A stretch of 64,000 nt of DNA, taken from positions 1 through 64,000 of the IMG/VR virus record IMGVR_UViG_3300028563_000012; one strand, 5' to 3'. Below are positions 22,001-50,181 of this stretch, piece after piece (within the stretch, counting starts at the first letter, position 1; every line of letters starts with the position of its first letter). The notes below the pieces were generated by a model. That model had not been told where the DNA came from and did no database searches. It saw only the letters and a program-made list of their open reading frames with translations. This DNA comes from a virus. Position numbers and translations under genes: made by a program.

Positions 22001-22868
22001 GCCGGAAGCTTTCGGCCATTGCTGCTCTTGGCTTGAGCCAAAAGTCGTGCGTGGTGAACGTCCAACGGTTCGGATCGCTCAAGGTCGTGTGGCTGTGGAG
22101 GCACAGCATTGCCTCTTGGTATTTCCAATCATCCTCTGCGATGTAGTGTGCATCCTGAGTTGCGATCAGTGACATGCCGAAGCGCTTGGACAACGCAATC
22201 GTCGCCTTGTTGACTCTGACTTGGTCTGGCATGTTGTGAGGCATCACCTCGCCATAAAAATCATCGCCAAATGTTTCACGCAAACGCGTAACCTTGTCGA
22301 TGGCACCGCCAGGCTTGCCATCAAGGTAATCACTGCCAATTGAGCCGATCTGGCAACCCGACAACACCACCAATCCCTCGTGATTTGCGAGCAAGCAATC
22401 GAGATCCACGCGTGGCCGCCGATAAAACCCCTTGACCCATCCCAGCGTTGTGACGCGCATCAGGTTCTTCAAACCCACAGAATCTTTGGCCAAGACGGTC
22501 AAGTGATAACGGCCGGTGATGCCCTCGTCATGCTCGAATTTCTTGATGGCCTCCTTGTGAAGCGACTTGGGAAGGTTGTCTGTGACACGGGCCTTCTCTT
22601 CCGGCGTCATGCCGCGGCGCGCCATATCCTTACACAAATACAGCTCAACCCCGTAGATGGGTCGCACAACATCATCCGGGTTTTCTTCGATTTCCTTGTG
22701 CAACCTTGTGAGCTGTCGAACAGTCCCGTGCTCCGTGAAAGCAATGGCTGGTTGCCCCATGGCTTTGGCAGCCGTCATGAAATCATGCATCTTTCCACAG
22801 CCGTCTAGCGTGGAATATTCGCTATGCGTATGGAAATGACAAAAGTCATCAGATTTGACATCGCTCAT
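19095..22868 (-). CDS. dnaE: DNA polymerase III alpha subunit (DnaE type)
   Basis: A 1257-residue C-family replicative polymerase. The N-terminal PHP domain has FCHFHTHSEYSTLDG and FTEHGTV (Glu in place of the usual Asp). The palm has GPARGSAGGS (residues 417-426) and the catalytic LPDVDMDFED with Asp459, Asp461 and Asp463. A finger region with FGSYGFNKAHSVAYG follows, then a helix-hairpin-helix segment (IKGVGEAAVRAI) and a C-terminal OB fold. Length is close to bacterial DnaE and no intein is visible. Many large phages use family A or B polymerases instead, so a DnaE is distinctive. The ATG overlaps the upstream TGA. Confidence 0.95.
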   Translation of the reverse strand: MSDVKSDDFCHFHTHSEYSTLDGCGKMHDFMTAAKAMGQPAIAFTEHGTVRQLTRLHKEIEENPDDVVRPIYGVELYLCKDMARRGMTPEEKARVTDNLPKSLHKEAIKKFEHDEGITGRYHLTVLAKDSVGLKNLMRVTTLGWVKGFYRRPRVDLDCLLANHEGLVVLSGCQIGSIGSDYLDGKPGGAIDKVTRLRETFGDDFYGEVMPHNMPDQVRVNKATIALSKRFGMSLIATQDAHYIAEDDWKYQEAMLCLHSHTTLSDPNRWTFTTHDFWLKPRAAMAESFRQFHPYMTDAQVQGALDTTMELESKLQAKLEVDRFKALVPKVSIPPEFSDDENKYIRSLCLRGWKERDIDRLIVAEAARRRISIGDCRKIYMDRLRYELERMEAQKVTRYMLVVWDVYKWARAAKIECGPARGSAGGSLVSFLLGITDLDPIMFGLLFERFLSPDRIDLPDVDMDFEDARRDEVITFLHKRYGEDNASQIGTNNKLTGKGCLRDIARIMDIPLREIQPVVDAVVERSSGDERASMTIEDSFKEFPVCQRFNERYPEVLEYAKKLEGQVKALGVHAAGVVVSPVPLIDVVPLEIRSQKGDGTPKVVTAVDMYGVSDLGLVKMDILGIRNLSAMRFCREAVAERHGVEIDWLKLPLDDKPTLANFTNHHYIGIFQFDTVSADKICDGVEFTSFDDVSAMVALDRPGTARSGLATEYLKRKKDPKKIVSIHPLVDEICKDTLGVIVYQEHVMKIFTDVAGFSPATSDSLRRKIAKKYGDDAIAKERENFVKGAIEHGLTPELASKLIEQIKFFGSYGFNKAHSVAYGLIAYREMYLKTHYPMEFMWALLKVEPDTDKVIRMVRACKRMGIDVLMPDINSKDPCNWTIEGGAIVGAVSNIKGVGEAAVRAIAAAGPYKDFVDFAERVDRRRCHKGVVNALIQGGAFDRMVPNTKWLYENLEKLWVHVGKANKGWQDKLRAIIRASAAAPKWPADVAEDIAKRINPMACGEDPLAPYVPMIEGMRTVWMKMDDEAIWDNPDAWMWGRIIEVRQNQVGDFHSGEEPSDEDKAKMGWGKRYANINVEDMSGRNQRVKIDVSDYEIYRPLLERGAGTVVAGHVVINKQYHSMRASFLVDLDELKAKIGAEDQGATSPGFDPLELCLWDGWRPGGKHVLPICEDRIWKMSALVVRVMQKTDKKGNEMGFLGLIGSDGLHRECLCFASSWESFQQILHRGVIAKFKLTKEKRTYFLDNKIEAAVTVIEP

Positions 22869-23326
22869 CGTCTTGACATTGCCCTTCGATGGCGCCGGGC
22901 TCGCGCCTTACCGTGCCAAGCCCCATCAAAGCCGTTGCATTCGTTGCAGCTCAACTTGATCAGACCACGCTTGTGGTCACGTTCGTACATGCGCATGCGG
23001 TGCATCATGTTCATCTTGCGCGGCTCCCAATCACGAACGTTATCGCCATGATCGAAACAGAGCAGCACAGGTGCGCCCTTGCTGTCCATGTCACCAATCC
23101 TGGCACCGCACTCGCCACATTCATTCCCAAGCTCAGCACGCAATCGATCGCGGCGCTCACAAGCCTGCAAGTAAACACGATGTTTCCGCCTTCTCCAATG
23201 GAGCTTGTGATCACGCTTTGGCTTGGTTTTTTCATTGTGGCCGAATTCGAAATCAAGCCCGACACCGCCGAACGTCGAGATGCCGCTGTCATCCGAATCA
23301 GAAACTGGCTGCACGTGTTTCGCCAT
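22865..23326 (-). CDS. HNH / endonuclease VII-like zinc protein
   Basis: A 153-residue very basic protein. CGECGARIG, FDHGDNVRDW and LSCNECNGFDG give the Cys-x2-Cys, Asp-His, Cys-x2-Cys order of HNH-type nucleases related to phage recombination endonuclease VII. The first 65 residues are charged and probably disordered. It could resolve junctions or nick DNA. It overlaps the polymerase start by four bases and the kinase end by 29. Confidence 0.65.
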   Translation of the reverse strand: MAKHVQPVSDSDDSGISTFGGVGLDFEFGHNEKTKPKRDHKLHWRRRKHRVYLQACERRDRLRAELGNECGECGARIGDMDSKGAPVLLCFDHGDNVRDWEPRKMNMMHRMRMYERDHKRGLIKLSCNECNGFDGAWHGKARARRHRRAMSRR

Positions 23327-30853: not shown

Positions 30854-30889
30854 GGCACTCTCCAGTTCAGTTGTGTGTTGGGGTTTCGT

Positions 30890-30918
30890 ATTATCGGGGT
30901 GTGAAACGTTCCCGGCAA
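30890..30918 (-). promoter_or_regulatory. Putative sigma-70-like promoter
   Basis: On the minus strand: -35 TTGCCG (30913-30918), spacer of 17 bases, -10 GATAAT (30890-30895), followed by the ATG of the gene at 30853. It matches the consensus at 4 of 6 and 5 of 6 positions with optimal spacing. It would start transcription of the sigma-like and nucleotide-metabolism block. It lies just after a hairpin that separates it from the upstream gene. Confidence 0.5.
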
Positions 30919-30969
30919 GTAACTTTTATTGCGGCGCGTATTTACGTATATCCACCTATATCAACCTAC

Positions 30970-30995
30970 CTTGGGTTACCAGTTGGAAACCCAAG
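30970..30995 (-). terminator. Intergenic hairpin, terminator-like
   Basis: A perfect 8-bp stem, CTTGGGTT (30970-30977) with AACCCAAG (30988-30995), around a 10-base loop that can itself pair CC with GG. It sits nine bases after the stop of the gene ending at 31005 in the direction of transcription, just before the promoter at 30890-30918. There is no T-run, so it may be weak or act as an mRNA end stabiliser. Confidence 0.45.
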
Positions 30996-31004
30996 ACCTT
31001 GCTC

Positions 31005-31436
31005 CTAATCGATCAAACGGTCGATCAATCGGCCCATGGCCCTGCGGGCAGCCTGGATGCCTGATTGCACATCGCCAACGTCGGCGATGCGATGAAGCTC
31101 CTTGATCGGCGCATCCTGGATGAGCGCCGTGTCAATATTCTCAATGGCGCCCATGGCCTCGTCCAATGCCAAACGAAGCGCCTGGATGCTGAGTTCAACT
31201 TTGGTGGATGCCGGTTCTTCGACAATGACCTTGCTTTCGCGGTAGTTCATGCGCGCCGTGATGCCCTTGCCCTTGAGAAAACGGATGTAATCCGCATCCT
31301 CGCGATCCGAGTCCAAGGGGTGCTTGCGCGGGATGAAACCAAGCTCTTTGCACCCTTGCGACAAGTCGGAGTAGAGCATGGTGTAAACCTTGACTGATTT
31401 CTTGGATTGCGATGTCGTTGCCATGTTATTGCTCAC
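31005..31436 (-). CDS. Hypothetical protein, 143 aa
   Basis: A helical protein with a basic N-terminus and a C-terminal repeat-like helix (AARRAMGRLIDRLID). The GTG at 31436 overlaps the upstream TGA (GTGA); an ATG at 31424 is an alternative. The upstream neighbour is a similarly small helical protein. No family recognised. Confidence 0.6.
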   Translation of the reverse strand: MSNNMATTSQSKKSVKVYTMLYSDLSQGCKELGFIPRKHPLDSDREDADYIRFLKGKGITARMNYRESKVIVEEPASTKVELSIQALRLALDEAMGAIENIDTALIQDAPIKELHRIADVGDVQSGIQAARRAMGRLIDRLID

Positions 31437-31621
31437 CCGTGCAACAAGCGTTCCCGAAGCGTTTCCAATTCAACCGCCAACGCGAGTGCGTGGGTGCGCG
31501 CTTCCCTGAAAGCCTCCTCGAACTGCCCGCGGGTCTGTGCCGCGAACAACTCGGTGCGAGCTTGCCCGAGAGACGTCAATGCGCTTTCAACAGCCTGAAG
31601 TTGTTCCGTTTGCGTTGCCAT
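31433..31621 (-). CDS. Small helical protein, 62 aa
   Basis: Almost entirely helical with heptad-like spacing (MATQTEQLQAVESAL... LALAVELETLRERLL). It is the first gene after the 201-bp repeat copy at 31631-31831 in the direction of transcription. Possibly an oligomeric structural or regulatory miniprotein. Function unknown. Confidence 0.55.
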   Translation of the reverse strand: MATQTEQLQAVESALTSLGQARTELFAAQTRGQFEEAFREARTHALALAVELETLRERLLHG

Positions 31622-31630
31622 GTAGAGACT

Positions 31631-31831
31631 CTTATGCGAGAATCAGGCCGAAATGATGAAGTGGGATTTATGGCACTTAGCATGGCAATAATGCTATCAG
31701 CTACGAAAACTTTACGTGGCTGTTTGCCATCAGTGTTGGCAAAGATGCGCTTCGCGCATGAAATGCCAAAGGAATTGGCAAAGCGCCGTAAAACGTCGCC
31801 ATCTCGTCAAAGCGACGAAAAACGGCGGTCA
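31631..31831 (-). repeat. 201-bp duplicated structured block, copy A
   Basis: Matches 33632-33832 at 199 of 201 positions. Read on the minus strand it begins exactly at the TGA stop of the gene at 31829 and ends ten bases before the next gene. It can fold: nested stems 31784-31789 with 31822-31827 and 31794-31799 with 31812-31817, and a separate stem 31745-31750 with 31754-31759. One minus-strand frame is open for about 58 codons but has no good start. A structured 3-prime UTR RNA, a mobile fragment or a recombination scar are all possible. Confidence 0.9.
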
Positions 31832-32227
31832 AGGCGATTGCGGCGGAGCGTCTGCCCCATCTGGATACCTGCTGATCAGGTAACGTGACAAGTAGTCGAG
31901 GATCGACTTGGCAATGGGGTGATCCGGATTGCCGGTCATGCCACTCGGCTCAAACTTCATGTTGAGCAAGTGCCTTGCAAGCTCGTAAAGCGGCACCCCG
32001 TGTTGAAGTGAAACGCTCATGGTTATCCCGAGCGCGTCAAGTGTCCCACGCAGCGTTGACCCAACCGAGTCGCACCGCAAGAACACTTCAGCCAACCGTT
32101 TTGGATTATCAGGAAACCCTGATGTGTGGACGTAACAACGCATCACGCCACCAGTTGTGTGTATTTTCAACAACTTGCACAACGACTCGCGCTCTTCACT
32201 GAGCTTCACCTTTTTCGGAGCATCCAT
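31829..32227 (-). CDS. Free-standing TSCPD-like domain of ribonucleotide reductase
   Basis: A 132-residue protein. FLRCDSVGSTLRGTLDALGI, then QHGVPLYELARHLL and FEPSGMTGN, plus SILDYLSRYL match the TSCPD domain found at the C-terminus of B12-dependent ribonucleotide reductases (NrdJ) and as stand-alone phage proteins. The catalytic reductase core is not in this window. The domain function is poorly known. Its stop is the first base of the 201-bp block. Confidence 0.75.
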   Translation of the reverse strand: MDAPKKVKLSEERESLCKLLKIHTTGGVMRCYVHTSGFPDNPKRLAEVFLRCDSVGSTLRGTLDALGITMSVSLQHGVPLYELARHLLNMKFEPSGMTGNPDHPIAKSILDYLSRYLISRYPDGADAPPQSP

Positions 32228-32247
32228 CAACGTGATCTATGCGATCA

Positions 32248-33009
32248 TCACCTGAGCTGTTTTGCTGCTGTTCCGAGCGCCTGGTTGCCTCCCAAATTGA
32301 CCTGGCTTCCGGCCTCCTTGCCCTTTTCGTAGGCATCTGCGTGCCATTTGGGGTGCGATGATGCAGATGATCGCAAGCCGAGTTTCTTGGACACGTTCGT
32401 GAACAAATTGTCCACCTCCGTTTGGCCTTGCTGGACGCGGATCAAGGCTGTCGAATTCCCAGCGCCCTCCAAGCCGTGGGCGATGAAATCGGTGCGTTGC
32501 TCCCGCAAGCGGTCAGAGATCACGCGGCCGGCCCCGAGCATGAAGCTGTTGCGCCAGCGCGTGGCGGCGGCTGCCAGCGGCCGCGGTATCTCGACGGCCC
32601 AACCCTCCATTGCCAAGCGCTGAACCTCGCGCTCCAAATACGCAAACATGTAGCGGAAAGTGTCAACGTTGGCTCTGCGACCGAGCACAATCAAGCGCAC
32701 AACGCGTTGCCCGGACGCCATGTCAAGCTCTTGCTGCCACCAAGAGTAACAACCAAACCCGTCCCCAACTCCGACGGCAAGCCGACCACGCCAGGCTGAT
32801 GCTTGCTTGTAGCTGAATTGGGTGTCCTCACCTTGAAGGATCTCACCGAGTCCTTGCTTGCCATCCACGCTTTCGACGTCTGCCATGGACAACTCGTGCT
32901 CTTCCATGAGACGAGCGGCCGCACTTGCGGCATTGGCAGCCTCGTTGACATTGTTAGACTTCGAAAGCGCCAACAGTTTCTTGATGCGGTCAACAATCTT
33001 GGATTCCAT
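32248..33009 (-). CDS. DUF2786-like protein
   Basis: A 253-residue protein. The N-terminal KIVDRIKKLLALSKSNNVNE followed by an Ala-rich helix and LMEEHELSMADV is characteristic of DUF2786, a family common in phages and plasmids and of unknown function. A Trp/Gly-rich middle and a C-terminal basic Gly-rich tail follow. It overlaps the upstream small gene by 20 bases. Confidence 0.75.
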   Translation of the reverse strand: MESKIVDRIKKLLALSKSNNVNEAANAASAAARLMEEHELSMADVESVDGKQGLGEILQGEDTQFSYKQASAWRGRLAVGVGDGFGCYSWWQQELDMASGQRVVRLIVLGRRANVDTFRYMFAYLEREVQRLAMEGWAVEIPRPLAAAATRWRNSFMLGAGRVISDRLREQRTDFIAHGLEGAGNSTALIRVQQGQTEVDNLFTNVSKKLGLRSSASSHPKWHADAYEKGKEAGSQVNLGGNQALGTAAKQLR

Positions 33010-33214
33010 TGCTGACTTTCTCCAAGGTGATCTTTGCTGTGTTCAAAGCTTCCAGCAATCTTGGCATGTTGACAGCGTTCAACTGCACGCCTTCGTGAAG
33101 CACCAAAACGGCCCGGCCGTCGAACAACAGCGCCTTGTTGAATTCACCTTCAGCAGTCCAACGATCTGCCGGCTTGGCTCCATGGCGCCGTGGCTTGATT
33201 GTGTGATTTTTCAT
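32990..33214 (-). CDS. Hypothetical protein, 74 aa
   Basis: A basic N-terminus (MKNHTIKPRRHGAK), then strands (FNKALLFDGRAVLVLHEG) and a C-terminal helix. The start at 33214 fits just after the upstream gene. No family recognised. Confidence 0.55.
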   Translation of the reverse strand: MKNHTIKPRRHGAKPADRWTAEGEFNKALLFDGRAVLVLHEGVQLNAVNMPRLLEALNTAKITLEKVSNGIQDC

Positions 33215-33218
33215 ACCA

Positions 33219-33611
33219 TTACTCGAAATTGTCAAGCTCTTCAACCATTTCGGCAATCGCTACAAGACGGCATTGCCGGATATGGTTGGCCGACCGTGAC
33301 GTGGAGCTGGAGCTGCTGGATGCCTGGCGCTTCAGCTCACCAAGCCAACCAGCTCTTATGTCCTCGAATGCGAGGCCGCGCTTGATTTGCTCCTTGATAC
33401 GCTTGAATGATTCCATGTAGGCCGCAGCAGCAAACACATCCTCTGACCACTCCAGCGCATCAGCAGGATTGTTGGCGAAACGCTCAACGAAAGCATTAAG
33501 ACGCACTTTGAATGCTTCAATCCTGCGATCCGCGAACGCATCAAAGTTGGATTCGAAGTTGGCGGGTGCGGACTTGGTTGCCATGGAATCTCCTTTGTGA
33601 AATGTGCCCAT
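33219..33611 (-). CDS. Hypothetical helical protein with Ser-rich stretch
   Basis: An AGGAGG five bases before the ATG at 33611 supports this start, but an internal ATG at 33584 also has AAGGAG, so two forms may be made. The protein is helical with a run of Ser (QASSSSSSTSRS) between two helices. It lies between repeat copy B and other small genes. Function unknown. Confidence 0.6.
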   Translation of the reverse strand: MGTFHKGDSMATKSAPANFESNFDAFADRRIEAFKVRLNAFVERFANNPADALEWSEDVFAAAAYMESFKRIKEQIKRGLAFEDIRAGWLGELKRQASSSSSSTSRSANHIRQCRLVAIAEMVEELDNFE

Positions 33612-33631
33612 CATGTCCTCCTGACTAAGGG

Positions 33632-33832
33632 CTTATGCGAGAATCAGGCCGAAATGGTGAAATGGGATTTATGGCACTTAGCATGGCAATAATGCTATCA
33701 GCTACGAAAACTTTACGTGGCTGTTTGCCATCAGTGTTGGCAAAGATGCGCTTCGCGCATGAAATGCCAAAGGAATTGGCAAAGCGCCGTAAAACGTCGC
33801 CATCTCGTCAAAGCGACGAAAAACGGCGGTCA
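33632..33832 (-). repeat. 201-bp duplicated structured block, copy B
   Basis: Nearly identical to 31631-31831, exactly 2001 bases away, differing only by two substitutions close together near 33657-33661. It begins at the TGA stop of the primase gene (33830-33832) on the minus strand and ends about ten bases before the AGGAGG of the next gene. The same hairpins as in copy A are present. Confidence 0.9.
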
Positions 33833-34852
33833 CCAAGCAATGGCCCGCATACGCATGCCGAGCGTGCAGATCGGGCGTTGGGATCGTTCCTCTTCTACGG
33901 CTGCCAAGGCCGCCAAGCGCGCCTCATCGGCCGGAACCGAGTTGGCATAGGACGCACGCAACTCCTCGGCCGTACTCTCACCCGGATCCTTGCGGCCGGC
34001 GGGGCAGTAAGCAACGCGGGTGCCAGGCAGCTTGCGAGCGATGCGAGCCGCGGACGTCAGTGCGTCGGCGGATCCGTCCAACATGACGGTCCATTTGGTC
34101 TTGCTGCTCGCCAGCATATCAAGTTGCTCGTCACGCAGGCGGAGGCCCATCAAGGCAACGGACGGGATCCCGGCTTGGTATGCCGCAAGGCAGTCAAATG
34201 GGCCTTCGACGATCAAGCCATCCTTGGTCCCGTCGAGCCCTTGCCACCCGTACAACAACCTGCCGGCATTGGGCCCGGCCTTGTAGCGCAAGTAGGCATC
34301 AGGTTTGATCGAGCGCGCTGTGAAGCTGCTCCCATTGGGGCAGACGATTGGCATGATGACTCGGTCCACGTACTCACCCGAGCGGCAGACTCCAAGGCCC
34401 ATGCGGCACGCAAGATCCCGGTCAAGCCCACGGCGCGTCAGGTACTTGGGCCACAGCCATTTCGTTCCGTCCCATAGCGGTTCGAATTCGGGTGGCAACG
34501 TTCCGTCGCGCTCGGGTTTCGTCTCGGCAACCGTGGCTTTCGTCGCGCTCGGGTTGATGCGCTTGAACTCGATGTGGCCGACGCGCCAAGCCCAGAGCAG
34601 TTTGCGCGCCTCATGCCACTCGATGCCGTCAACCTCGACCACCAGCTTCAGGATGGACAGCGACTTTTCATCGCAGGAAAAACAGATGAACCTTCCAGCT
34701 GGAAGGTCATTGCCATCAGAATCAACACCAGGTTCAGAATTGATGTACAAATGTTGACGTTTCATACACCATGGGCATTTCATGATGTACTCTGATCCCG
34801 AGCTGCGGCGGGCGCCCGCACCTTCCAGCCAATCAACCATGCCTTCGCTCAT
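33830..34852 (-). CDS. dnaG: DnaG-type DNA primase
   Basis: A 340-residue primase. The N-terminal zinc ribbon has Cys26/Cys29 (CPWC) and Cys57/Cys60 (CFSC). A TOPRIM domain has GLIVEGPFDCLAAY (Glu216, Asp220) and VMLDGSADAL. It synthesises RNA primers for the DnaE polymerase. The usual C-terminal helicase-interaction domain is not evident, so it is compact. The upstream gene is the DnaB-like helicase (four-base overlap), a normal phage pairing. Confidence 0.88.
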   Translation of the reverse strand: MSEGMVDWLEGAGARRSSGSEYIMKCPWCMKRQHLYINSEPGVDSDGNDLPAGRFICFSCDEKSLSILKLVVEVDGIEWHEARKLLWAWRVGHIEFKRINPSATKATVAETKPERDGTLPPEFEPLWDGTKWLWPKYLTRRGLDRDLACRMGLGVCRSGEYVDRVIMPIVCPNGSSFTARSIKPDAYLRYKAGPNAGRLLYGWQGLDGTKDGLIVEGPFDCLAAYQAGIPSVALMGLRLRDEQLDMLASSKTKWTVMLDGSADALTSAARIARKLPGTRVAYCPAGRKDPGESTAEELRASYANSVPADEARLAALAAVEEERSQRPICTLGMRMRAIAW

Positions 34853-36195: not shown

Positions 36196-37593
36196 CTAAA
36201 AAATCCTGACAGCTTCACCTTCCCACATGCACCACTCCTGCCCGTTAGCATCTTTCCACAGCCCTGTCGGCATGTTGGGGTTGGGACGGTCTTTGGGGTG
36301 GACGTAATCGCGCACTGCCACCCCAAAGGCGCCAGCCAAACTTGAAAGCTGAATGAATTTCAGATGTTTCGGCTTGGACTCATTGGCTCTGTGGATGAAT
36401 TCCTCTTGCGTCACAGCCTGATCTTCAAGCCAGCATGCCAGCCAATTTTTCACAGCTAGTTTGGCATGCTCGGTGGTTGATGTGTTGTTGGCCAAGTCGT
36501 ATTCAGACGTTGTCTTGCCGGTAGTCTCAGACCACAGCTTGCGGTAAGCAGCCATGAAGCTCTTGGCCATGGTGGAAAACATCGCCTCTTTCAGGCGCTT
36601 GTACATCGGCGTCCGGAGTAGCTTGCGCACGTCTTCCGGCGGTAGGAGCATCGCTTTGGCGGAGATGTGCATGGTGTTCGCGATTGTGCCGTCGCTCAGC
36701 CGGGCCGTGATCTTGCCTTCGCCGTCTTCCGGCGGAGGAAGCGAGCCGGTGACGAGTCCGGGGTGCCTTGTTGTGCGTTGGATGCGGCCGCGCTCTGCCT
36801 TGGTCTTGCGTTCGACTGCTTCAGCCAGTGTGTGTGCATCCGACTTCGGCGCTGCTGCCGCTGCGCTGACGAGATCCGAGCGAAGCGAGGATCGAGGAAC
36901 AAGAGGAAGGCTTGAAGGATCTTTCTGCTTTTTCTTACTTTCTGCAGAGTTAGCTTTACTTAGCGTCGGGGAAACAGCGCGGCGCGGCGTGAAAGAAACT
37001 CTTTCGTCACTTGGCTTTGTTGGCAATTGCGGCTTGGAAACTCTTTCGTCACTGGAAACTCTTTCGTCACTGGGACGAAACTCTTTCGTCACTTGGCTTT
37101 GTTGGCGAATGTGACTTGGAAACTCTTTCGTCACTGGAAACTCTTTCGTCACTTGGCTTTGTTGGAGAATGTGACTTGGAAACTCTTTCGTCACTGGAAA
37201 CTCTTTCGTCACTTGGCTTTGTTGGAGAATGTGACTTGGAAACTCTTTCGTCACTGGAAATTGTTGGAGAATGCGACTTGGAAACTCTTTCGTCACTGGA
37301 AACTCTTTCGTCACTGGAAATTGTTGGAGAATGTACGTCCTAAAGACAACCCCGGCCGTGACTGACATCGTCCAGCTTTTTTGGAATCCTGTTGGGCGCA
37401 CGGCTTTGATGCTCACAGCGCCAGCATCTGTCCATTTGTCCATGAGTTTACGTAAAGTCACATGGCTGATCCCGAGCGCTGACGCTTGCTGCTCTTGGGT
37501 GGTTTCCTTGTGATTCATCCGCATCCACTTGCGAATAATAGGCACATCATTGATGGGTTTTGGTCCGCGCTTCGTCATGTGGTCGTTTTCCAT
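36196..37593 (-). CDS. Putative replication initiator (HTH plus repeat linker)
   Basis: A 465-residue protein. Residues about 1-75 hold a helix-turn-helix (EQQASALGISHVTLRKLMDK). Then comes a repetitive linker in which VTKEFP recurs, coded by the 15-bp DNA repeats, then a basic low-complexity stretch and a C-terminal helical domain (residues about 270-465). The layout, with origin-like repeats inside the gene followed by helicase and primase genes, recalls lambda O and similar phage initiators, but no sequence similarity is claimed. ATG 37593 is used; ATG 37578 is possible. Confidence 0.55.
   Translation of the reverse strand: MENDHMTKRGPKPINDVPIIRKWMRMNHKETTQEQQASALGISHVTLRKLMDKWTDAGAVSIKAVRPTGFQKSWTMSVTAGVVFRTYILQQFPVTKEFPVTKEFPSRILQQFPVTKEFPSHILQQSQVTKEFPVTKEFPSHILQQSQVTKEFPVTKEFPSHIRQQSQVTKEFRPSDERVSSDERVSKPQLPTKPSDERVSFTPRRAVSPTLSKANSAESKKKQKDPSSLPLVPRSSLRSDLVSAAAAAPKSDAHTLAEAVERKTKAERGRIQRTTRHPGLVTGSLPPPEDGEGKITARLSDGTIANTMHISAKAMLLPPEDVRKLLRTPMYKRLKEAMFSTMAKSFMAAYRKLWSETTGKTTSEYDLANNTSTTEHAKLAVKNWLACWLEDQAVTQEEFIHRANESKPKHLKFIQLSSLAGAFGVAVRDYVHPKDRPNPNMPTGLWKDANGQEWCMWEGEAVRIF
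36996..37314. repeat. Eleven iteron-like 15-bp repeats (candidate origin)
   Basis: Eleven copies of AAACTCTTTCGTCAC start at 36996, 37038, 37056, 37078, 37120, 37138, 37180, 37198, 37240, 37282 and 37300. Several come as pairs 18 bp apart, and blocks repeat at 60 bp (37120, 37180, 37240). All copies have the same orientation. They lie inside the putative initiator gene and code its VTKEF linker. Direct iterons of this kind are initiator-binding sites in many phage and plasmid origins. Confidence 0.85.
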
Positions 37594-39623: not shown

Positions 39624-39638
39624 CTTGGATATTCTTTG

Positions 39639-39694
39639 CCAAAAGAAAACGCCGTCCAAGAGTCCGGTTGCCCGATGGTGCTCTCTTGGACGGC
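39639..39694 (-). terminator. Rho-independent terminator of the structural operon
   Basis: A perfect 12-bp stem, GCCGTCCAAGAG (39651-39662) with CTCTTGGACGGC (39683-39694), and a 20-base loop. On the minus strand it is followed by GTTTTCTTTT (39639-39650 region). It is placed 46 bases after the last structural gene (stop at 39741) and is the clearest transcription end in the window. Confidence 0.85.
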
Positions 39695-39740
39695 GCCCCA
39701 ATGCCGATTACTTATTTGCGAAGCTGCGAATGCTAATTGG

Positions 39741-42005
39741 TCAAATGGATAGGCGTTTCACGTTCATGTTGAAGCCTTCGGCTGACATGAAGATGATGTC
39801 CCCGCTAACAGCATTCAGCTGGCTGAAGGTGAAGTTTGCTGGGATGAATGTTCTTTTCCTGAAGTGCATGTTGATTCTGGTTTGCGTTGACATGCCAATC
39901 GCGCCATCTCTTGCAAATGTGCCAACGATGTAGTTGGCGCTGTCGTATTGGCTTGCGACATTGCAAGCGAAAACAGGCACCAGACGCGGGTTGGTGTCGC
40001 ACGGGATGTAATGAGCATCCAACTCCATCATGGTCGACGGGGCAGGCGCGCCAACCATTGGGATGACTTCTGGCGAGCCTGAAACTGTGTCCGCGGTGTG
40101 GCAAAAGCCACTCGTGCCGTATATTGACACACCACCACCAAATTTTTGCGCATTGCAAGAATAAACCCAATCACCCTCAATGATGCAGCTGCGGTAGGAA
40201 AGCGTGGCTGCCGCCCGATACCCAATCCCGATGTACAGCGTTGCTGCTCTTGGAATGGTGTTGCCGCCGCTGTCAGTGATGTCGTTTACGGCGCGGCCGC
40301 GTGATGGCGCGACGCTGCAAGCAACGACTTTCAATGGGGCTGAGTTGGCTCTGTATGGCGTTGCGTACGCGTTTGCGAGTTGGCAGTGTCTTCCTCCGCA
40401 AAGGTAGATGTAGAATGGCACATCAGTCCCGGCGGGGGTGCCAGGTTGCAACGTCGATGAGATCTCTGCCGTGATCCCTTGGTCATTTGGAAAGTATTCA
40501 ATGCGCTCGCCATCAATCAACGGGATGTGCTCGACTCCAGCAGGCAACTTGATTACGGAATCCGTGGCGCTATTGACAAGCGACCAAACAGGCGTGCAGC
40601 CTGTCAGAATGCCGTGGAAGCTGCTGAATGGACCTTCGATCCTGCGATGGAGCAAGCGCACAAATCCAAAATCATAGGCAGTGGTGCCGCCGCCTGGAGG
40701 GACGGTGACTGCAAACAGCCCGATCTTGTTGCTTGGAACGGTTGGCAGAACAGGGGCACCGCTCGCTGTTCCGGTGATGATTGACAACGTGCACAAAGTT
40801 CCGGGCATGGCGGCAGCATTGACTGCCACAATGTCGTAACGCGTGTTCATAGCATCCGCAGCAGCGTGGAGCAAAGTGGCGGCAGCCCATGCTATTTCGC
40901 TGAAATCAGACATTCCAGGGCCCGTGCCACCAATTGGCGCATTTGCACTTCCAGCGTCGTAAATGACATGCAATCCAGTTCCTGCTGTTGCACCTGGGAC
41001 CTTCTGCAAAGCGGGTATTGGGGTCGAATCTCCGGCCATTCCTGAGATGATGGATCCATTCGCATCCAAAATATTGGAACGCTTGCCGCTATCACGCATG
41101 AAATTGTGCGTGTACGATTCAACCAGAGCAGCCTGGTCTGCGATCCCGTAAGGGGCCACTGATTGGCCGATGTTGTCGATGTTTCCGGTGGGGATGGGAG
41201 TGCTGGCGCTCACAGACAAAACATGCCCCAAGAACAAGATGCCAGAGCCTCCAAGCAACGGATGGACTGCGTGATCTGTGACCAACGGGCCCATGAGCAT
41301 GACTTGGTAGTCTGAGGCCGTAGTTGACGGAACGGTTTGACCACACCCGTTGGCGATGGTGACATAGTTACCGCCGCCATCATGGGCAATGGTGCCAATT
41401 TGGAACGCATTCTCAACCAAGACGCCACGGACAGCACCGGGACCGCCATCGGATGTCGACTTCAGCCAAACTCGAACACTGCGACCTGAATGGTCATCAG
41501 CGGAGGCCATCATGAATGCCGTGTTGACGTACATCTTGATCGATGTTCCGGCAGCAGTTACGCTGTCAGGATTGGCCAAATAACCCAACAACTCTATGTA
41601 GTTGGTGTACTCAGCATCGCCTGTTCGTGGGTTGGTCTCGATGCCGTTGTCCACTTCTACTTGGGTTGTTGCAATGTCATACGTCTTCGTGCCTGGTGGG
41701 ATTGGGACGTTTTGCAAGTCGGAGTGAGAACGATCACCAGCCGGACCGGAAAGCAATGACTGGATGATTCTGCCCAAGCCATCAGTGCCAATGAAATCAT
41801 CGACGGCTGCGATGTTGACATGGTTGTTTCCAGTCGGAACGATGCCGCCGTTGGTCAGATTCACAAACAAGCAGCTACGATTCCACAACCTTTTGGTCGC
41901 TGCTCTTTGCGATCCGATCAGGTAGTCCAAAATCCCCTGCTTCAAGGTGTCAAGCGGCAGGATCTTCTTGTTGTAGATTCTCGCATATTGATCAGTGGTT
42001 GGCAT
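39741..42005 (-). CDS. Putative tail fibre / baseplate-associated structural protein
   Basis: A 754-residue protein at the distal end of the structural operon. The N-terminus (MPTTDQYARIYNKKILPLD) precedes long beta-rich sequence with many Gly, Ser, Thr and Asn, typical of fibre or wedge proteins. No enzymatic motif is seen. Position right after the I-like wedge gene suggests a tail fibre or a baseplate attachment protein for host adsorption. Confidence 0.55.
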   Translation of the reverse strand: MPTTDQYARIYNKKILPLDTLKQGILDYLIGSQRAATKRLWNRSCLFVNLTNGGIVPTGNNHVNIAAVDDFIGTDGLGRIIQSLLSGPAGDRSHSDLQNVPIPPGTKTYDIATTQVEVDNGIETNPRTGDAEYTNYIELLGYLANPDSVTAAGTSIKMYVNTAFMMASADDHSGRSVRVWLKSTSDGGPGAVRGVLVENAFQIGTIAHDGGGNYVTIANGCGQTVPSTTASDYQVMLMGPLVTDHAVHPLLGGSGILFLGHVLSVSASTPIPTGNIDNIGQSVAPYGIADQAALVESYTHNFMRDSGKRSNILDANGSIISGMAGDSTPIPALQKVPGATAGTGLHVIYDAGSANAPIGGTGPGMSDFSEIAWAAATLLHAAADAMNTRYDIVAVNAAAMPGTLCTLSIITGTASGAPVLPTVPSNKIGLFAVTVPPGGGTTAYDFGFVRLLHRRIEGPFSSFHGILTGCTPVWSLVNSATDSVIKLPAGVEHIPLIDGERIEYFPNDQGITAEISSTLQPGTPAGTDVPFYIYLCGGRHCQLANAYATPYRANSAPLKVVACSVAPSRGRAVNDITDSGGNTIPRAATLYIGIGYRAAATLSYRSCIIEGDWVYSCNAQKFGGGVSIYGTSGFCHTADTVSGSPEVIPMVGAPAPSTMMELDAHYIPCDTNPRLVPVFACNVASQYDSANYIVGTFARDGAIGMSTQTRINMHFRKRTFIPANFTFSQLNAVSGDIIFMSAEGFNMNVKRLSI

Positions 42006-49362: not shown

Positions 49363-50181
49363 CTAGTGCCTTTTGGCGCCCATCCTCCACAATTCTTGCA
49401 GGTATGCTTGCGAGCGTGCAACTTGCTCAATCCAAACAGGCCCGTAGCACAGATCAATACCCTCATTCCAAAGCGGATCTGGAAGGCCAAAAACCCATGG
49501 GCAAGCATTGGCGCCCGTTTGCCATGGGATGGCCCCGGTAAGCGTGTTGTTGCCCAATTCGACACCATTAACGTACAACCGTATGTGCGATCCATCGTAC
49601 GTAAGTGACAAAAGCGCCCATTCACAAAATGGGACACGATTGTGATCAACTTTGACAAATATTGGTGCCACTGTCCCATCGAACGTCATGTTGGCGCCTC
49701 GTTGGGCGATGCTCATGTGCACAACTTGATACGGGGATACCCAAGTTGACGGACGAAACGGTTTGGAAATTATGCGCCCATCATTGTCGCCTGGACGAAA
49801 GTACGTTTGGACAAATACCCAAACAGATAATGTCAAATAGTTTGGCGGTTCGAATGCCCCAACAGCTGTCAGCATTCGCAAATTCTGCGTCGTTCCTGGT
49901 GAGTAGATGCCGCCGCTGAATTGTTGCTCTCCAAACGGACCAACAACGCCAGGAATCGGCGTCCCCAAGTTGATCGTCAGGTCATTGGTCCCTGTGATTT
50001 CGTTTTTGAAAGATGTTGCTGTTGATGGCTCTTTGAACAAGAACAACGCAAGTGTGTCTGAGTCATGCGGTGCAGGGATGTCGTAAAGCTTCACAAGCGC
50101 CGTAGAAGGGCCAGGGCCACGCAGGCTCCCAATGGATGTTCCCCAAGCAGATGAGCCTTTTCTGTAAACATCACCTTTCAT
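49363..50181 (-). CDS. LamG/ConA-like receptor-binding module, paralogue 1
   Basis: A 272-residue protein. A short N-terminal linker (MKGDVYRKGSSAWGTSIGSL) precedes a concanavalin A/LamG-like beta sandwich: YLTLSVWVFVQTYF, LLSLTYDGSHIRLYVNGVEL and a C-terminal YGPVWIEQVARS. Such domains bind glycans. It is about half identical in layout to the following gene, so the pair arose by tandem duplication. It is coupled to its neighbour by a stop/start overlap. Confidence 0.7.
   Translation of the reverse strand: MKGDVYRKGSSAWGTSIGSLRGPGPSTALVKLYDIPAPHDSDTLALFLFKEPSTATSFKNEITGTNDLTINLGTPIPGVVGPFGEQQFSGGIYSPGTTQNLRMLTAVGAFEPPNYLTLSVWVFVQTYFRPGDNDGRIISKPFRPSTWVSPYQVVHMSIAQRGANMTFDGTVAPIFVKVDHNRVPFCEWALLSLTYDGSHIRLYVNGVELGNNTLTGAIPWQTGANACPWVFGLPDPLWNEGIDLCYGPVWIEQVARSQAYLQELWRMGAKRH

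Follow-up and report, generated by a model that had tools for sequence, protein, structure and literature searches.

The window analysed here, a stretch of 64,000 nucleotides from a soil phage (positions 1 to 64,000 of IMG/VR record IMGVR_UViG_3300028563_000012), contains two blocks of 201 bp each, at 31631-31831 and 33632-33832, which are 99.0% identical with 2 mismatches, as the original prediction, made from the sequence alone, had described. The two copies have the same orientation and lie 2001 bp apart. The full virus record has 102,534 bp, and its ends overlap by ~150 bp across a join that is crossed by another contig, so the genome is effectively complete. It holds three more copies, at 84068-84265 (83% identity), 90006-90203 (98%) and 95959-96160 (96%), all on the minus strand, which brings the total in the phage genome to five. 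All five are intergenic and co-directional, in a genome that is 91% coding, and since the called genes are almost wholly on the minus strand, all the copies run with transcription. A 35-mer from the element gave 0 matches in shuffles, and the repeat is therefore not due to chance. The genes and features around the two window copies are the following:

31631 to 31831, minus strand: element copy 1, 201-bp core; the shared sequence continues to the ATG at 31621
31829 to 32230, minus strand: TSCPD-domain gene upstream of copy 1 (PF12637, E 1.2e-7); its TGA is the element's first codon
31784 to 31827, minus strand: 5' hairpin of copy 1, nested stems CGCCGT/ACGGCG and CGTCGC/GCGACG, 1 nt past the stop codon
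31717 to 31783, minus strand: central hairpin of copy 1, 67 nt, one long irregular hairpin, z -3.73
31631 to 31716, minus strand: 3' domain of copy 1, 86 nt, nearly invariant, 42% GC against 55% for the genome
31678 to 31696, no strand assigned: operator-like 6-7-6 palindrome of copy 1, TAGCAT-N7-ATGCTA
31627 to 31644, minus strand: small hairpin GATTCT-CGCATA-AGAGTC directly ahead of the start codon, shared by four of the five copies
31433 to 31621, minus strand: gene started by copy 1, 62 aa, without family
33632 to 33832, minus strand: element copy 2, 201-bp core; differing 3' flank with its own AGGAGG ribosome-binding site ahead of the next gene
33830 to 34852, minus strand: primase gene upstream of copy 2 (phrog_47, E 1.5e-35); its TGA is the element's first codon
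33785 to 33828, minus strand: 5' hairpin of copy 2, same sequence as in copy 1
33632 to 33717, minus strand: 3' domain of copy 2
33679 to 33697, no strand assigned: palindrome of copy 2
33219 to 33614, minus strand: gene started by copy 2 (phrog_11723, function unknown)

On the minus strand each window copy opens with the TGA of the preceding gene, so that the fusion of the blocks to gene stop codons, which had also been predicted, holds for the genes at 31829-32230 and 33830-34852; in all five copies the distance between the 5' edge and the stop codon is 0-9 nt. At the other end, the common sequence of four of the five copies passes the 201 bp as AGTCTCTACAT and reaches the ATG of the downstream gene. 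The start codons are preceded by CGCATAAGAGTCTCTAC, and in copy 2 by AGTCAGGAGGAC. The original prediction thus had both window copies right, and missed the three further ones and the 3' edge defined by the start codon. No paralogy was found among the genes that flank the copies, which indicates a duplication of the intergenic block without its neighbours. None of the five copies is in the virion region: those at 31.6 and 33.6 kb are beside replication genes, and the remaining three sit in the accessory region, at 84-96 kb.

The block is bipartite, with a hairpinned 5' half and an invariant, unstructured, AT-rich 3' half. The nested hairpins predicted at 31784-31827 (CGCCGTTTTTCGTCGC...GCGACGTTTTACGGCG) are present, with an RNA fold of -21.3 kcal/mol and z -4.05, and consist of nested GC stems around T-rich internal loops, the stems being invariant and the apical loop variable across the five copies. 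The inner stem (-9.4 kcal/mol) is followed by TTTTACGG, where a terminator pattern scan made no call; with only TTTT after the inner stem, this hairpin is at best terminator-like. In copy 84068 the central part has been replaced, since only 38 of 68 positions (56%) match copy 1, by a sequence that folds into a long hairpin of its own (z -4.17). The 3' domain is less structured than its shuffles (z +1.18), and is a candidate promoter/operator or unstructured leader. The palindrome TAGCAT-N7-ATGCTA occurs exactly five times in the genome, once per element and nowhere else. The antisense strand of the element folds as well as the sense strand, and for this reason the data do not separate an RNA from a DNA function. 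The suggestion of a structured RNA is partly borne out, by the strongly hairpinned 5' half, but the antisense strand folds equally and no Rfam family matches: an Rfam search at both thresholds gave no match in the window at gathering score, the best weak hit on the element having E 4.4. In a covariation test of 60 pairs, only 2 had any both-sided change, the copies being too alike.

A start-less minus-strand frame of 58 codons, taken in the original prediction for a possible coding remnant, does exist in both window copies, but is not conserved, as two of the others have only 42 and 33 codons of it; the element is therefore not coding. On the plus strand, an antisense ATG frame (MRESGRNGEM...) from 31634 is open for at least 58 codons in all five copies, but the central residues that it encodes are not conserved, being almost entirely different in copies 84068 and 90006.

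The near-identity of the copies, and the fact that several contigs end within an element, could suggest an assembly artefact or a contaminant, both named beforehand as possible refutations. Short-read assemblies break at repeats. An artefact is contradicted by IMG/VR contig 3300028800_000100, from another sample, where identical versions of the two window copies occupy their places between identical flanks. The other IMG/VR contigs are consistent with this, being fragments of the same phage that are 99.98-100% identical. The element is absent from 50,697 phage records and 72,556 plasmid records, and an exact 23-mer of it is absent from 84,980 bacterial/archaeal species, so that a vector contaminant is not supported either, and an origin of the blocks in either way is scarcely credible. 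Four more IMG/VR pattern scans, with patterns from both halves, found this phage only. An 18-mer of the 5' hairpin matches 15 bacterial contigs, about the chance level for 257 Gb, and none of these 15 matches extends into the element. These searches also give no support to the proposal of homing or mobile DNA, in particular of a miniature (MITE-like) mobile element without coding capacity that inserts after stop codons, with which five near-identical copies, sharp bounds and a hairpin at the 5' end would agree. Such an element is very improbable, given that other phages, plasmids and bacteria have no copies and the IMG/VR matches are to the same phage only, that no presence/absence polymorphism was seen, that the intergenic, co-oriented copies are never within a gene and have their 3' edge at start codons, and that the element ends, TGACCGCC and CGCATAAG, form no terminal inverted repeats. 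Integron attC sites and homing elements were set aside, as no such genes were seen beside the copies.

Other repeats and signals were observed in this genome. A strong intrinsic terminator, GGCGCCGTCCAAGAG...CTCTTGGACGGCGTTTTCTTTT, is found at 39624-39740, between a 754-aa gene (39741-42005) and a helicase gene. A second start-associated repeat, an exact 28-bp sequence around TAGGCAACCAAAGGATTCGAAGCATGT, runs from stop codon to start codon at 96406-96433 and 96901-96928 of the genome (L013:12406-12433 and L013:12901-12928). Degenerate GGAAACTCTTTCGTCACT repeats occur at 36993-37334 within a 465-aa gene (36196-37593) that has no PHROG or Pfam family match, and two imperfect direct repeats of 67-81 bp lie at 543-722, near the record end.

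A polymerase search retrieved three syntenic relatives, G009 (104 kb), G007 (116 kb) and G008 (53.5 kb), the polymerases of which are 51%, 43% and 46% identical, respectively, to that of this phage. The element is absent from all three, the best chance match being 15-19 nt, and a covariance-model search of the relatives returned only the five known copies and their own antisense strands. When stop-to-start gaps were compared, each relative proved to have its own multicopy family, unrelated in sequence to the element, with start-associated repeats both directly past primase and in the accessory region. The post-primase junction holds a start-associated motif or repeat in all four phages, a comparison made after looking and in which the G007 member is a shorter and weaker match. 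In the accessory region of G007, AAAAAAGTTCTCGACTTGTGGAAGCA is repeated ahead of gene starts. In G008 there are two pairs, one AT-rich and promoter-like and the other with two hairpins; in both cases one member is close to the primase and the second is in the accessory region. G009 has a short start-associated repeat, and two junctions that carry AAAAAAGTTCTTGCC 17 nt ahead of TATGGT, or 18 nt-spaced equivalents such as TTGCCT-17-TATATT. Several of the relatives' junctions have sigma70-like promoters (G008 22523-22634, p 0.02; G009 71758-71865, p 0.01).

Two of these families have further features. Between 75.6 and 98.3 kb of G007 (IMGVR_UViG_3300012984_000014) the junctions hold at least eight start-associated repeats with AAAAAAGTTCTCGACTTGTGGAAGCA, several of which carry an inverted TTCCACAA/TTGTGGAA pair resembling DnaA boxes. 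The two-hairpin leader of G008 (IMGVR_UViG_3300028840_003032, 22977-23050 and 50076-50142) has stems GGGGG..CCCCC and GCCC..GGGC directly 5' of AAGGAG-ATG, with constant stems, variable loops and no promoter-like score.

On the sense strand of the element, a sigma70-type promoter does not score above background (p 0.18-0.61). On the reverse strand, each copy gives a sigma70 score in the range p 0.06-0.10, but the copies are not independent of each other. A motif model trained on the G007 and G009 promoters does not pick out the element, and a promoter claim based on the similarity of its AAAGTTTTCG to the relatives' motif AAAAAAGTTCTCGAC was dropped because this model did not rank it. Since no sigma70 promoter was found, the 3' half, if it is a promoter, would be of another type or dependent on a phage factor, and otherwise would be a leader. 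A single-copy junction of this phage, 30854-31004, contains AAAAGTTAC-TTGCCG-17-GATAAT, with a good sigma70-like promoter score and a resemblance to the G007 and G009 promoter motif.

In our view, the 201-bp block is probably a reusable regulatory cassette placed at the border between two transcription/translation units. The 5' half, with two hairpins right after the stop codon, would serve to terminate the upstream message, to protect it or to process it. Expression of the downstream genes would be started and controlled by the invariant 3' half, which would probably combine a promoter and an operator, for which TAGCAT-N7-ATGCTA is the putative site, with a short leader up to the start codon. 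The five copies would in this way place separate non-virion gene groups under one signal. They may have spread by recombination within the phage, and recent origin, gene conversion or selection may account for their continued similarity; the expectation that near-identity implies recent duplication or selection agrees with what was found, as recent duplication or homogenisation plus constraint. A border cassette is supported by the copies being intergenic and co-directional in five of five cases, with stop- and start-codon edges and an element-only palindrome, all outside the virion block, by the contrast between the hairpin halves (z ~-4, with the hairpin rebuilt in copy 84068) and the unstructured AT-rich 3' half, and by the relatives' repeats at the same places together with the same order of parts in Adephagia (see below). 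It is weakened by the lack of a sigma70 promoter, by there being only TTTT after the inner stem and by the equally strong antisense fold.

The main rival, which we consider rather unlikely, is a post-transcriptional element of polycistronic messages, whose hairpins would be cut (e.g., by RNase III, as between the early genes of phage T7) or would shield RNA ends, while translation of the next gene would be controlled by the 3' half as a leader. The strong irregular hairpins that follow the stop codons, the second refolded in one copy, the small hairpin ahead of the start codon in four of five copies and the failure to find a sigma70 promoter are all consistent with it, as are the repeated two-hairpin leaders of G008, which end in AAGGAG-ATG and combine variable loops with no promoter-like score. 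However, the most conserved part of the element is the unstructured 3' half and not the hairpins, and the antisense structure is equal. A multicopy site acting at the DNA level, in replication, priming or partition, for which the intergenic position would be merely free space, could explain the symmetry of the structure on both strands, the element-specific palindrome and the copy next to the primase gene; it is improbable, since it would need neither the gene orientation of all five copies nor a 3' edge at the start codon in four of them.

If the cassette reading is right, five groups of genes in this phage are governed by a single signal, and in the relatives one sees signals swapped as whole families while the positions stay. 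As a tentative and less likely extension, this clade of ~100-kb phages may keep its cassette places, post-primase and accessory, with each phage replacing the sequence wholesale by its own multicopy family and with regulator and sites turning over together. The 201-bp element, a non-sigma70, phage-specific signal, would then be the most elaborate known case. The phages would provide a natural series for studying how phages rewire a gene-expression programme, and the element a ready-made oriented part, with hairpins followed by a start region.

Several known systems share parts of this arrangement. RNase III processing hairpins lie between the early genes of phage T7, and resemble the element as irregular hairpins repeated at the gene borders of one phage, cleavage of the element being putative. 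Unlike the hairpins of the element, those of T7 have no invariant 86-nt domain attached to them that reaches to a start codon. Cluster A mycobacteriophages have stoperators (mentioned in PMC3203893), regulatory sites that are likewise repeated, oriented and intergenic in one phage. Stoperators are 13-bp asymmetric sites bound by a repressor, whereas the element is a long, hairpin-bearing block.

The nearest known systems are the SAS/ESAS repeats of cluster K mycobacteriophages, which are oriented, abut gene starts and lie in the non-structural region, and whose inverted repeats have a different consensus in different subclusters (PMC3203893). A SAS has 13 bp and lies around the ribosome-binding site; an ESAS, of ~50 bp, has a 17-bp inverted-repeat pair and contains putative SigA promoters (PMC3203893, PMC11373665), which were recognised later, one junction also having an upstream stem-loop (PMC11373665). 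The element resembles them in being multicopy, intergenic, in one orientation, start-abutting, outside structural genes (all five copies) and provided with an inverted repeat, and the repeat families differ between the relatives of this phage as they do between subclusters. In contrast, its unit is ~210 bp, with two large hairpins and nearly identical copies, it shares no sequence with SAS, whose defining 13-bp GGGATAGGAGCCC by the start codon is absent, and it has a 6-7-6 palindrome instead of the 17-bp imperfect inverted repeat of ESAS and no sigma70-like promoter above background. Lacking both the defining 13-bp sequence and the promoter hexamers, the element is not a member of SAS/ESAS, but judging from its sequence it appears to work like them. 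A comparable arrangement of parts is that of the intergenic region between genes 90 and 91 of mycobacteriophage Adephagia, described as a toxin-antitoxin junction, with a stem-loop, an ESAS (inverted repeat plus putative promoter) and a SAS (PMC11373665). Both regions have, between two genes, a stem-loop, an inverted repeat and a start signal in the same order, with a putative promoter in the case of Adephagia; there the arrangement occupies a single place, whereas here the whole block is repeated five times.
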